Shown: in pieces, positions 44,189 through 46,857 of the stretch
Layout of the letters: each line of letters starts with the position of its first letter
Position numbering within the stretch: position 1 is the first letter of the stretch
Assembly: GCF_016863135.1 (NCBI RefSeq)
Contig: NZ_BOOH01000049.1
Coordinates: 1 to 64,000, forward strand
Length of the DNA: 64,000 nt
Reading direction: 5' to 3'
DNA from: Planobispora longispora
Lineage (GTDB): Bacteria; Actinomycetota; Actinomycetes; Streptosporangiales; Streptosporangiaceae
Translations under genes and position numbers: made by a program
Notes under the pieces: generated by a model
Database searches by the model: none
What the model was told of the DNA's origin: nothing
What the model saw: the letters and a program-made list of their open reading frames with translations, nothing else

Positions 44189-44206
44189 GGTTAACGGTCA
44201 CTAACC
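44189..44206. promoter_or_regulatory. TetR box 1 of the leucine-degradation operon
   Basis: GGTTAACGGTCACTAACC, a dyad of GGTTA and TAACC around eight bases, lies 32 bases ahead of the carboxylase start. It shares GTTA-N8-TAAC with box 2. Confidence 0.65.
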
Positions 44207-44217
44207 CTGCCGTGGAT

Positions 44218-44233
44218 GTTAGTCATCATTAAC
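44218..44233. promoter_or_regulatory. TetR box 2, over the tetR promoter
   Basis: GTTAGTCATCATTAAC (GTTA-N8-TAAC) lies 29 bases after box 1 start to start. It overlaps where the -35 of tetR should be: a -10-like TACCAT sits at 44243-44248, seven bases before the GTG, suggesting a leaderless, autoregulated tetR message. Confidence 0.65.
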
Positions 44234-44255
44234 GTAACCGTCTACCATTCGAGAG

Positions 44256-44846
44256 GTGACGACTGCCCAGACCCCTACCCGCAATCGCGGGTCACGTCGC
44301 ATGGAGATCCTGGAGGCCGCCGCGAGGCTGTTCGCGGCACGCGGCTTCCACGGTGTCTCCATCGAGGACATCGGCGCGGCCGTCGGCACCTCGGGCCCCG
44401 CCCTGTACCGGCACTTCAGCGGCAAGGAGGCGCTGCTGAGCGAGATGCTGCTGGACATCAGCGAGCGGCTGCACGCCTCGGCGGCCGCCCGGGTCACCGC
44501 GGCCCCGGACGCCGAGCACGCCCTGGACGCCCTGCTGACCGGCCAGATCGAGTTCGCGCTCGGCCACCCGGCGCTGATCACCGTGCACGACCGCGAGCTC
44601 GGCAACGTCCCCGAGCCGGCCCGCCGGCAGATCCGCCGGCTCCAGCGCCTGTACGTCGAGGAGTGGGTCACGGTGCTGAGCGAGCTCCACCCCGGCTGCC
44701 CGCCGCCCCGGCTGCGCGCCGCCACCCACGCGGTCTTCGGACTGCTCAACTCCACCCCGCACAGCGCGGGCGAGCTTCCCCCCGAGGCGATGGCCCCCCT
44801 GCTGCGCGCGATGGCCCGCGCCGCGTTCACCGAGGCCGGAAATTAA
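44256..44846 (+). CDS. TetR-family regulator of the leucine-degradation operon
   Basis: A 196-residue regulator. Helix-turn-helix residues ~16-60: RMEILEAAARLFAARGFHGVSIEDIGAAVGTSGPALYRHFSGKEALLSEML. The C-terminal ligand domain resembles the TetR_C group found beside acyl-CoA degradation genes (LITVHDRELGNVPEPARRQIRRLQRLYVEEWV). It is divergent from the carboxylase operon across a 98-base gap with two dyads, so it is most likely its repressor, released by an acyl-CoA (inference from context). The GTG has only GAGAG directly ahead and a TACCAT -10 at the distance of a leaderless start. Confidence 0.88.
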   Translation: MTTAQTPTRNRGSRRMEILEAAARLFAARGFHGVSIEDIGAAVGTSGPALYRHFSGKEALLSEMLLDISERLHASAAARVTAAPDAEHALDALLTGQIEFALGHPALITVHDRELGNVPEPARRQIRRLQRLYVEEWVTVLSELHPGCPPPRLRAATHAVFGLLNSTPHSAGELPPEAMAPLLRAMARAAFTEAGN

Positions 44847-44857
44847 CGACTGCTAAC
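44842..44857. promoter_or_regulatory. Third TetR-like box overlapping the tetR stop codon
   Basis: ATTAACGACTGCTAAC fits the box pattern (seven of eight half-site bases) and aligns with boxes 1 and 2 when all are read in one orientation: about NTTAAYGRTNRCTAAC. It includes the tetR TAA. Confidence 0.45.
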
Positions 44858-44860
44858 AAA

Positions 44861-44887
44861 AGGTGCGCGCCGGACCGGCGCGCACCT
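44861..44887. terminator. Strong hairpin between tetR and the octapeptide unit
   Basis: AGGTGCGCGCCGG and its exact complement meet around a single base: a 13-bp perfect dyad. It lies after the tetR stop on the plus strand and 25 bases after the last octapeptide stop on the minus strand, so it can end both transcripts. Confidence 0.75.
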
Positions 44888-44912
44888 GGATGCACATAGT
44901 TAAGGGTCAGAC

Positions 44913-44939
44913 TCAAGCCCAGTCCAAGGTACGCCGCAT
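44913..44939 (-). CDS. Octapeptide ORF A (MRRTLDWA)
   Basis: A 27-base reading frame coding MRRTLDWA and a TGA stop. It is preceded at five bases by GGAAAGGAGG, nearly the full complement of the 16S rRNA 3' end, which is far stronger than the ribosome sites of most genes in this window. It is third and last of three tandem copies. The palindrome CACCGCGGTG (44971-44980) precedes its ribosome site. Function unknown; no larger gene follows before the terminator at 44861-44887. Confidence 0.62.
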   Translation of the reverse strand: MRRTLDWA

Positions 44940-45002
44940 GACGCCCTCCTTTCCATCGGCTCCGCACCGCCACCGCGGTGACCCGCCAGGACGAACAGCA
45001 CC

Positions 45003-45029
45003 TCAGGTCCAGTGGAACTCACGCTTCAT
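45003..45029 (-). CDS. Octapeptide ORF B (MKREFHWT)
   Basis: A 27-base frame coding MKREFHWT with TGA stop, behind GGAAAGGAGGG at the same spacing as its neighbours. Compared with ORFs A and C all positions differ conservatively except M1, R3 and W7 (K2 for R, F5 for L, H6 for D). That pattern suggests selection on peptide character rather than a recent DNA copy. A 6-bp hairpin (CGCTGC/GCAGCG, 45052-45068) lies upstream. Function unknown. Confidence 0.62.
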   Translation of the reverse strand: MKREFHWT

Positions 45030-45089
45030 GACACCCTCCTTTCCAGATCCACGCTGCCGACCGCAGCGCCCCGGCACGATCGTCAAGGC

Positions 45090-45116
45090 TCAGGTCCAGT
45101 CCAGACTGCGTCGCAT
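45090..45116 (-). CDS. Octapeptide ORF C (MRRSLDWT)
   Basis: First of the three tandem 27-base frames; codes MRRSLDWT, then TGA. The ribosome site is GGAAGGGAGG at five to six bases. A 6-bp hairpin with four-base loop (AGCCAC/GTGGCT, 45138-45153) precedes it, and a promoter-like region lies at 45163-45192. Start-to-start distance to ORF B is 87 bases and from B to A 90 bases. The nearest possible transporter is the MFS gene divergent at 45541. I know no named family with this exact peptide pattern. Confidence 0.62.
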   Translation of the reverse strand: MRRSLDWT

Positions 45117-45162
45117 GACGCCTCCCTTCCGGCGTGCAGCCACCGCCGTGGCTGTCGCGATG

Positions 45163-45192
45163 ATCGTAAGCAATCAATAGAGATTGCTCTAT
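45163..45192 (-). promoter_or_regulatory. Promoter-like region of the octapeptide unit
   Basis: Reading leftward, TACGAT (complement of 45163-45168) is a fair -10. The -35 position is covered by the dyad ATAGAG-ATTG-CTCTAT (45177-45192), a possible operator. Transcription from here would reach ORF C after about 40 bases. The DNA from 45160 to 45210 is much richer in A/T than its surroundings. Confidence 0.4.
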
Positions 45193-45427
45193 ATACGGAC
45201 ATACAGAGGGACCGATATTCACCCCAGCAGGCCGTATGGTCCAGACGCCCGTCATCCACACGCGGATCACCATGATCGCTTTACAGCAGGTCGTCGACAT
45301 GTCAAATCAGCGCGAACAGTTTTTCGAACGTTCCACGCCCGTGCGCACGCTTCTCCGGCCGGGACCGAAGTTAACAGGGCGGCAACAGAGGCTCTCGCGG
45401 CCAAAATTACGGTTGTGTCCGAAACCT

Positions 45428-45447
45428 CTATATGTCTCCCCATATAG
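45428..45447. promoter_or_regulatory. Inverted repeat in the upstream region of the MFS gene
   Basis: CTATATG and CATATAG, perfect complements around six bases, lie about 95 bases ahead of the MFS start, with a TATGAT hexamer at 45460-45465. The stretch 45200-45427 shows no gene that I can support. Confidence 0.4.
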
Positions 45448-45540
45448 GGATTAATCGCCTATGATCATCGGCTGCCGCGGCTCTCGCCCGGCGGGTCCAA
45501 GTCATGCCCGACGTTCCCGTACGCTGGAGATCACACGCCG

Positions 45541-46857
45541 ATGGCGGAGAAAGCACAGCAGGTCACCGACGCGTCGGCGGCGGACGGCACCACCGACGAC
45601 GTGGCGGATCGCCCCGCCACCTTCCGGGAGGTCTTCGGCGTCGCCGAGTACCGCTACCTCTTCGCCTCGGCGATCCTGTCCTGGATCGGTGACTACTTCG
45701 CCCGGGTGGCGGTCGCCTATCTGATCTTCAGTGACACCGGCTCGGTGCTGCTGTCCGCGGCGGGCTTCGCCGTCAGCTTCCTGCCCTGGGTTGCCGGAGG
45801 ACCCATCCTGGCCGCGCTCGCGGAGCGGTACCCGTACCGGCGCGTGATGATCCTGTGCGACGTCGCCCGGACGGCGCTGATCGCGCTGATGGCCGTGCCC
45901 GGCGTGCCGCTGCCCGCGCTGCTCCTGCTGCTCCTGGCCGCCTCGGTCCTCACCCCGCCGTTCCAGGCCGCCCGCTCGGCCCTGCTGGCGCAGGTGCTGA
46001 CCGGGGACCGGTACGTCGTGGGCCTGTCCCTGCAGAACATCGCCGGCCAGACCGCGCAGGTCGCCGGTTACGCGGTCGGCGGGGTCATCACCGCCGTCGA
46101 CGCCCGGGTGGCCCTGCTCCTCAACGCGGCCTCGTTCGCCGCCTCGGCGCTGCTGCTCCGGTACGGCGTGCGCCCCCGCCCGGCGGCGGCGACCGCGACC
46201 GCCCGCGCCTCCCTGCTGAGGGAGACCGCAGACGGCGCGCGGGTGGTCTTCGGGCACCGGGTGATGCGGCCGATCGCGCTCGTGGCGTTCAGCATGGTCG
46301 CGATTGTGATCGTCCCCGAGGGGCTGGCCGTCGCCTGGGCGGCCGATCTCGGCGGAGGGTCCCGGGCGGCGGGCCTGCTCATGGCGGCGCTCCCGGTCGG
46401 CAGCGCCGTCGGCGCCGTGGTGATCGGCCGCATGATGACGCCGGAGCGGCGGATAAGGCTCATCAGGCTGTTCCTTCTGGCCGGGCCCCTGCTCCTGGTG
46501 CCCGCGCTGCTGTCCCCGCCGCTCGCCGCGGTGTTCCTCATGATGCTGGGAGCCGGGATCGCCGGCACGGTGATCGTGCCGCTGAACGGCCTGTTCGTGC
46601 AGGTGCTGCCCAGCGCCTTCCGCGCCCGCGCCTTCGGGCTCATGCAGGGCGGCATGCAGATCACGCACGCGGTCGCGGTGCTCGCCGCCGGGGCGCTCGC
46701 CGAGGCGTTCTCCGTGGCGACGGTCGTCGGGATCTGGTCGCTGTGCGGCCTGGCCCTGATGACGGTGGCGGTGACGAGGTGGCCGTCGAAGGAGGTCATC
46801 GACACCGAGGTCGCACGCGCTGCGGAGCTCAACCGCCCGGCGCCGGCCTCCGGCTGA
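45541..46857 (+). CDS. MFS transporter, drug-exporter-like
   Basis: A 438-residue permease with twelve predicted helices. After a polar N-terminus comes FREVFGVAEYRYLFASAILSWIGDYFARVAVAYLIF, then the loop motif LAERYPYRRVMILCDVART (motif A position). The second half starts near VMRPIALVAFSMVAIVIVPEG. It belongs to the MFS group related to macrolide/enterobactin exporters (EntS/MefA type). It faces the three octapeptide ORFs and might export them or their product, but that is only positional. It is followed on the same strand by an ABC exporter pair with its own control region. Confidence 0.88.
   Translation: MAEKAQQVTDASAADGTTDDVADRPATFREVFGVAEYRYLFASAILSWIGDYFARVAVAYLIFSDTGSVLLSAAGFAVSFLPWVAGGPILAALAERYPYRRVMILCDVARTALIALMAVPGVPLPALLLLLLAASVLTPPFQAARSALLAQVLTGDRYVVGLSLQNIAGQTAQVAGYAVGGVITAVDARVALLLNAASFAASALLLRYGVRPRPAAATATARASLLRETADGARVVFGHRVMRPIALVAFSMVAIVIVPEGLAVAWAADLGGGSRAAGLLMAALPVGSAVGAVVIGRMMTPERRIRLIRLFLLAGPLLLVPALLSPPLAAVFLMMLGAGIAGTVIVPLNGLFVQVLPSAFRARAFGLMQGGMQITHAVAVLAAGALAEAFSVATVVGIWSLCGLALMTVAVTRWPSKEVIDTEVARAAELNRPAPASG

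Follow-up and report, generated by a model that had tools for sequence, protein, structure and literature searches.

Tandem octapeptide mini-genes of Planobispora longispora and an actinobacterial family of tryptophan-containing mini-genes beside transporter and diguanylate cyclase genes

Three tandem octapeptide genes of Planobispora longispora can be placed in a family of very short tryptophan-containing genes, named W mini-genes here, which can be found by model, protein and pattern searches in several actinobacterial families. That the family is coding appears practically certain; the same can be said with scarcely less assurance of the three copies in the window (i.e., the whole stretch of 64,000 nucleotides analyzed, positions 1 to 64,000 of contig NZ_BOOH01000049.1), and their unit very probably belongs to the family as a divergent member. 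Both coding and the association of such arrays with a transporter and a cyclase gene in a cassette are well supported; export of the peptides and their sensing are what we infer from the neighboring genes. The explanation that fits best overall, to which we give slightly less than even weight on the basis of sequence comparison, is that of a tiny exported signal peptide with an output in c-di-GMP. No published description of the family was found in a literature search that left aside most subscription journals and all preprints.

The mini-genes of the window and their signals

A first-pass annotation, made from the letters of the window, had drawn attention to three related 27-nt ORFs on the minus strand with start-to-start distances of 87 and 90 nt, and these are borne out (Table 1). 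The near-perfect Shine-Dalgarno sites claimed with them are also present, the spacing to the ATG being 4, 5 and 5 bases rather than five to six, and the 13-bp hairpin placed after the last ORF consists of two perfect 13-nt arms (44861-44873 and 44875-44887) followed by TTTTG, the sole terminator-like site in a scan of positions 44200-45600. Regarding the small dyad attributed to each module, folding gives no indication of it (z-scores of -1.31, 1.17 and 0.55 for the modules and -1.14 for the whole unit), and the supposed promoter-like region before the first ORF shows no sigma-70-like site in a scan of 44200-45600; a palindrome with one mismatch is found there instead. No Rfam family matches in the window at gathering score.

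Table 1. Mini-gene unit of the window and adjoining features
Feature	Position	Strand	Basis and remarks
Mini-gene A, MRRSLDWT*	45090..45116	-	27-nt ORF, family-model match; ATG CGA CGC AGT CTG GAC TGG ACC TGA
Mini-gene B, MKREFHWT*	45003..45029	-	27-nt ORF, family-model match; ATG AAG CGT GAG TTC CAC TGG ACC TGA
Mini-gene C, MRRTLDWA*	44913..44939	-	27-nt ORF, family-model match; ATG CGG CGT ACC TTG GAC TGG GCT TGA
Shine-Dalgarno site of A, GGAAGGGAGG	45121..45130	-	Sequence; ends 4 bases before ATG
Shine-Dalgarno site of B, GGAAAGGAGG	45035..45044	-	Sequence; ends 5 bases before ATG
Shine-Dalgarno site of C, GGAAAGGAGG	44945..44954	-	Sequence; ends 5 bases before ATG
Terminator-like hairpin 3' of mini-gene C	44861..44887	-	Terminator scan and repeat search
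Palindrome CTCTGTATGTCCGTATATAGAG, one mismatch, before mini-gene A	45187..45208	.	Sequence; possible operator or promoter region
Palindrome CTATATGGGGAGACATATAG, MFS side	45428..45447	.	Half-sites resemble those of the palindrome at 45187..45208; possible shared operator
MFS transporter gene (MFS_1; best NCBIfam model TIGR00900, below cut-off)	45541..46857	+	Putative partner, in divergent orientation to the mini-genes
TetR-family gene converging on the hairpin	44256..44846	+	Start 44256 or 44301; neighbor

The repeats form a 44-nt direct-repeat family in which the copies are 73% and 77% identical to the one taken as reference. Their motif pattern has three matches in the window and none in 100 shuffles, a comparison that is partly circular since the pattern was drawn from these copies, and no match in the rest of the 8.84-Mb genome. 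Mini-genes A and C differ by three synonymous (CGA/CGG, CGC/CGT, CTG/TTG) and two conservative (S/T, T/A) codon changes.

Regarding the surroundings, the MFS gene lies 589 nt from the middle of the array in divergent orientation. In G001, a species of the same genus, the palindrome before the mini-genes is perfect (CTCTATATGTCCATATATAGAG), and the related half-sites on the mini-gene and MFS sides are hints of a joint control of both. TetR_N, the domain of the convergent neighbor, is found in only 2 of 122 neighbor proteins across loci. A membrane GGDEF cyclase gene is absent within 10 kb of the window array; the source genome carries one with its own mini-gene (MLRGVTWI) elsewhere, on contig C44.

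The W mini-gene family and selection on its peptides

W mini-genes are defined here by a strong Shine-Dalgarno site, 7-10 codons starting with M-R or M-K, a penultimate Trp and a stop, all of which are present in the three window copies. In the family as a whole the start is usually M-R, Trp is usually penultimate, the stop is mostly UGA and the genes are often in tandem, with a spacing of 64-138 nt into which the 87 and 90 nt of the window fall. A pattern with Thr or Ala fixed at position 8 recovered one genome among 100 relatives, namely the source genome itself, and, in a collection with one genome per species, one locus of Nonomuraea jiangxiensis (MRRDFDWA) with a second copy 85 nt further that has a GTG start, (V)RRDYDWG; a looser pattern matched in 2 of 341 family genomes. 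Viral contigs gave no match, nor did plasmids in a DNA search.

A first sequence-only model, built on the five modules of the window and N. jiangxiensis and applied to 338 same-family genomes, detected a single copy (MRRDVVWG) at the syntenic place in G001, MRRDFEWS elsewhere in the Nonomuraea genome, MRRDHEWV in G243 and some matches of lower score, 8 of the 16 matched genomes being dropped by eye for an incomplete ribosome site and ORF. With a second model, run on 394 genomes of the class, tandem decapeptides were found in G008 (MRIRRDIIWQ, MRVRHDLIWT, MRIRRDIVWT) and G228 (MRIRREIEWG, MRIRRDIEWG), together with MLRGVTWT and, in another family, MRGVNWV twice. Here 23 of the 33 matched genomes were dropped, 21 of them by eye for an incomplete ribosome site or ORF and two (G399, G661) uninspected, and some members must have escaped, since scoring was limited to at most 15 first-look candidates per genome. 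The plasmid collection yielded M(V)RGVTWT adjoining a cyclase in Nonomuraea gerenzanensis (NZ_LT559118.1), and plasmid p1 of Pseudonocardia sp. DSM 110487 (NZ_CP080522.1) has three copies of MRNHNW, in which Trp is last, by the GGDEF protein WP_255622856.1. The gene table of the latter plasmid, known to be incomplete, lists the cyclase and none of the three adjoining mini-genes; genes of seven codons escape annotation.

Other forms also occur. In fused forms the W unit is repeated within one ORF with AP linkers, as in L113 (1228-1296, MSKDYTWGAPDFVWHAPDYIWM), L112 (1246-1293, MRNIVIWNAPDIVWQ) and L011 (about 1517-1564, MNRDFDWSAPEHEWL). Three different Trp mini-ORFs (MSHRTQWEWG, MRTWEW and MRKRTWDW; L195, 7917-8173), and perhaps a fourth (MPQESIRGWDWGRA), lie upstream of an MFS gene in G028, and MRQGNYWG is located at the 3' end of an opposite-strand MFS gene, divergent from a GGDEF gene (L069, 5328-5354).

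The proposal that the window ORFs are true coding genes is supported by their relatives in other genomes, in which the reading frame, the length, the first residues, the Trp and the ribosome site are all retained. Frameshifted or stop-containing homologs were looked for, and the single syntenic homolog (G001) is intact; in a distant MFS-linked relative (L110, from G041) the entire mini-ORF stretch is absent, not frameshifted. Codon changes were counted on minimum spanning trees for 30 arrays: 34 were synonymous and 16 non-synonymous, against an expected synonymous fraction of 0.19 (p 7.6e-14). This excess resides in the 26 cyclase-linked arrays (30 synonymous vs. 4 non-synonymous), in which Ser is encoded by both AGC and TCC, in contrast to the four arrays without a cyclase (L004, L023, L104, L106; 4 vs. 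12), which are near the neutral expectation. The window array lies outside the tree count because the script required R, L, S or A as second residue and copies within 150 nt. The synonymous bias suggested as a check is thus clear beside the cyclase, and the pairwise comparison of the window copies (4 synonymous to 11 non-synonymous codon pairs) would not by itself show coding. As it is the cyclase arrays that give the purifying signal, coding in the window is argued from kinship with them, together with frame, length, Trp, ribosome sites and the intact ORF of G001.

It had also been envisaged that the repeats might be mere RNA elements. However, RNA structure as the conserved feature can be ruled out from the fold z-scores of the modules and of 18 arrays including that of the window, the latter folding on average worse than shuffles (mean z +1.6, with no array below -2). 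An exception is the strong hairpin (z -5.52) 3' of the N. jiangxiensis pair (L004, 6783-6870). Between copies, 59-66% of the spacer sites differ. Given that changes beside the cyclase are almost only synonymous and that the array RNA is no more prone to folding than its shuffles, it is the peptide that is preserved. On this comparative evidence the family and a selection acting at the peptide level are firm.

Transporter and cyclase genes beside the arrays

The cassette is defined here as a TIGR00900-like MFS gene, a mini-gene array and a gene for a membrane GGDEF diguanylate cyclase. It is firm in the family f21, where arrays of up to 13 genes for heptapeptides such as MRDNTWT, MRDTTWS and MRGNSWD lie between the MFS and cyclase genes, in divergent orientation to the cyclase and convergent orientation to the MFS gene; other families have parts of it. 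The window unit has the adjacent MFS gene and no adjacent cyclase gene.

Twenty loci were found by mini-gene sequence alone, of which 11 show MFS similarity, 9 a membrane GGDEF protein and 3 both, so that an MFS and/or cyclase gene is found at 17 of the 20. Pairs are within 0.6 kb save at G073:C104, where the "MFS" is weak, lies 1.7 kb away beyond the cyclase, matches in pieces (76 bits) and has no Pfam match. The three loci with neither partner are G225:C50, G242:C9 and G210:C57, the last of which adjoins an EamA transporter gene.

A search with the cyclase in 148 genomes of the class gave 49 matches in 37 genomes, 48 of which were used for the neighborhood count, one contig-end fragment being left out. 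Divergent W mini-genes lie within about 1 kb upstream of the cyclase in 26 of these 48 matches (86 mini-genes in total), and none was found on the cyclase's own strand (0/48); dinucleotide shuffles contained one in 13 of 2400 cases. The arrays reached in this way include 8 copies of MRDNTWT, 8 of MRDNNWN and 5 of MRDNTWS, and up to 13 copies in G469 (MRDTTWR followed by 12 MRDTTWS). MFS similarity within 1.5 kb occurs at 17 of the 26 cyclases with mini-genes (two of them weak, 76 and 49 bits) vs. none of the 22 others (Fisher p 1.2e-6, uncorrected for relatedness). These 22 homologs are devoid of a mini-gene by the rule used, L174 having the variant VRNTHWTRA. Homologs whose similarity is confined to the GGDEF part (L154, L155, L159, L192-L194) have no mini-genes and represent a weak control, because their upstream region may fall inside a longer gene. 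Within f21, all 14 cyclase matches have mini-genes and 12 have an MFS gene on the far side.

An independent check was provided by a pattern blind to neighbors, MRxxxWx with a ribosome site, in 394 genomes of the class. It gave 122 matches (each G513 copy counted twice) in 51 of the 394 genomes vs. 6 reversed-pattern matches in 6 genomes; 80 of the 122 are in f21 (16 of 22 f21 genomes), and many single matches elsewhere look like chance. Sixteen pattern-picked places were inspected, including every multi-copy array in genomes outside the earlier set. All 11 arrays with both flanks available (L238-L248, from 7 genomes) show an MFS gene, the array on the opposite strand and a cyclase. As for the other five places, L249 (at a contig end) and L250 have a cyclase, L252 has only a weak GGDEF match, and L251 (at a contig edge) and L253 have neither an MFS nor a cyclase flank. 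Over 122 neighbor proteins from 32 loci, many of which were found via MFS or cyclase genes themselves, GGDEF (23), MFS_1 (22) and MFS_3 (13) prevail among the 25 commonest of 105 families, other families occurring three times at most.

A general tie of mini-genes to the MFS subfamily of the window was considered and rejected: only 3 of its 30 best matches (L074-L103) have real-looking W mini-ORFs, namely the window, G001 and L078 (MRDQWT). Matches to the MFS protein of L058 likewise have strict mini-genes at 3 of 30 loci, all previously found, and variant mini-ORFs can be found at L109, L112 and L113 among the ten loci L107-L116. Because the closest homologs of the window MFS protein outside the genus, L076 (70%) and L077 (52%), have no mini-gene, the link in the window is either young or loose.

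In the MFS proteins scanned, TIGR00900 is the best match, below cut-off. The MFS tree, with a warning about long branches, shows the mini-linked proteins clustered (8 label changes vs. 17 in shuffles, none of 500 being as low) and not in one clade, the window protein grouping with that of G001 and two homologs without mini-genes. The cyclases have a GGDEF domain (GGEEF in the sequences inspected) preceded by several hydrophobic stretches, and their N-terminal part matched no solved structure by sequence. In their tree, a group with MR[GA]NSWD peptides is separated from one with MRDN[TN]W[TSN] peptides (support 85/98 and 94/94). A functional link between the mini-genes and the MFS protein is probable.

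Possible functions and nearest known systems

In the reading preferred here, each repeat is a complete mini-gene with a strong ribosome site, 7-10 codons and a stop. Having such genes in tandem increases the output of a single short Trp peptide or, in the case of the window, supplies several variants. The MFS protein, judging from the adjoining gene, may export the peptide, which could then be sensed by the cyclase, through its multi-helix N-terminal part, or by a receptor elsewhere; the membrane cyclase suggests a change in c-di-GMP as the output. An exported signal read through c-di-GMP in this manner is a tentative proposal, short of even confidence, and slightly more tentative still is that of a new class of peptide signaling in which heptapeptide arrays without leader or processing would be combined with dedicated MFS export and a membrane cyclase as the reader setting c-di-GMP in actinobacteria. 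If true, paralogous cassettes with different peptides in one genome (such as MRGNSWD and MRDTTWS, in G487 and G559) would each form a channel of their own, and the window unit, with its transporter gene divergent from three octapeptide genes and perhaps sharing an operator with them, would have branched off and diversified, retaining the transporter but not the cyclase next to it. A conserved transporter/peptide-array/cyclase cassette would link short peptides with c-di-GMP in a new way, and it supplies a rule at sequence level by which more genes of this kind can be found; the idea is directly testable with synthetic peptides, because these are known to the residue. Among the candidate functions listed in the first-pass annotation, signaling fits best, and ribosome-stalling peptides fit only the loci where a mini-ORF precedes the MFS gene.

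For these loci (L058, L059, L067, L068, L112, L113 and L195, with the mini-ORFs on the strand of the MFS gene), the reading as leader peptides stands, in which translation of the mini-ORF would sense an antibiotic or tryptophan and control the transporter in cis by ribosome-mediated attenuation, uORF control by antibiotics being known (PMC12121999). By eye, stems after the stop can be seen in L012 and L112/L113, and G041 (L110) has retained its MFS gene without the mini-ORF stretch found in G156 and G157. However, no terminator-like site was detected by a scan after the L113 mini-ORF, and the peptides of L112 and L113 (MRNIVIWNAPDIVWQ, MSKDYTWGAPDFVWHAPDYIWM) differ at most residues outside W/APD in otherwise similar surroundings. 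In the window there is no gene to control, because a terminator and a convergent TetR gene follow; f21 arrays have an orientation at odds with a leader of either neighbor, and neither up to 13 copies nor conservation of the whole peptide is expected of a stall site. Such leader peptides are an unlikely explanation for the family as a whole. In the comparison of L110 with L113, G041 lacks about 240 nt before the MFS gene that comprise mini-ORF and spacer, the MFS proteins being nearly identical.

Somewhat less probable is that the whole ORFs are precursors of a small modified or antimicrobial peptide of the microcin C type, exported by the MFS protein. The seven-codon length, the strong Shine-Dalgarno site and the transporter resemble mccA and mccC (PMC6495379), and seven orthologous f21 arrays have a ThiF plus nitroreductase gene in their vicinity. 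However, the latter gene was found at 7 of the 39 sources searched and not in the window, for which reason it was rejected as a core part; no maturation-enzyme family figures among the 25 commonest of the 105 neighbor families, a ranking that leaves off families occurring once, so that the earlier suggestion of a modified-peptide precursor finds no backing there. In addition, the C-terminal residue varies (T, S, D, N, A, G, I, V), and the link to the cyclase would be unexplained. At the seven f21 loci concerned (L164, L165, L167, L178, L179, L182, L183), the ThiF plus nitroreductase gene is accompanied by two others, one of 214 residues that matches no Pfam family and one of the GAF-GGDEF-EAL type, a trio absent from the 32 other sources searched.

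It is rather improbable that the peptide is not exported and, as a small regulator, binds the MFS protein or the cyclase within the cell or the membrane: no signal sequence is present, the neighbors are steady and the peptide types group with cyclase clades, but most peptides are short and polar, and a tandem output by a transporter gene suggests export. Finally, the repeats as RNA elements or sinks for ribosomes or tRNA, with an irrelevant peptide, are highly improbable, in that the strong Shine-Dalgarno sites, the single strong hairpin after the N. jiangxiensis pair and the precedent of the lambda bar minigenes, very short ORFs that can tie up tRNA, have to be set against mainly synonymous changes beside the cyclase, a varying last sense codon, no excess structure in 18 arrays and no Rfam match in the window.

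Returning to an exported signal peptide, receptors other than the cyclase can be envisaged. Genes for BTAD, NB-ARC and TPR regulators and AraC-like genes can be found near the decapeptide mini-genes of G228 and G140 (L057, 9422-12583; L059, 9042-12758), and it is speculation that the TPR regulators there might be peptide receptors.

Among the known systems that come close is microcin C, with the seven-codon gene mccA, a strong Shine-Dalgarno site and the exporter MccC. One ribosome can translate ORFs of 2-8 codons repeatedly, with a recycle number of 71 for mccA and less for longer ORFs (PMC6495379), and by analogy this could apply to W mini-genes; repeat translation combined with tandem strong ribosome sites makes the arrays look built for the output of short peptides. 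Precursors of the mccA type have a C-terminal Asn and an adjoining mccB gene (PMC6495379). The window peptides end in T, T and A; MRDNNWN of G450 has a terminal N. W mini-genes further differ from microcin C by their varying last residue, the usually penultimate Trp, the tandem genes and the link to a cyclase, and no gene for an enzyme of the mccB kind recurs beside them. Regarding an MccB-like ThiF, the ThiF protein of L164 has no match in the window, and none was found in the four window neighbors scanned.

Biarylitide precursors have a five-residue consensus and need a P450, a family that is not among the 25 commonest neighbor families in a scan that took in the four nearest window genes. 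Such very short ribosomal precursors are found in actinobacteria and others (PMC12951456). Leader peptides (uORFs) of resistance and efflux genes share with some loci a short ORF before a transporter gene, but the ORFs of the window and of f21 do not lead the neighboring gene, and arrays reach 13 copies. The Gram-positive peptide pheromone systems Agr and Rgg-SHP combine a short peptide, a transporter and a membrane or cytosolic receptor. In contrast with these, W cassettes have no leader or larger precursor, and a diguanylate cyclase, the putative receptor, replaces the kinase or regulator.
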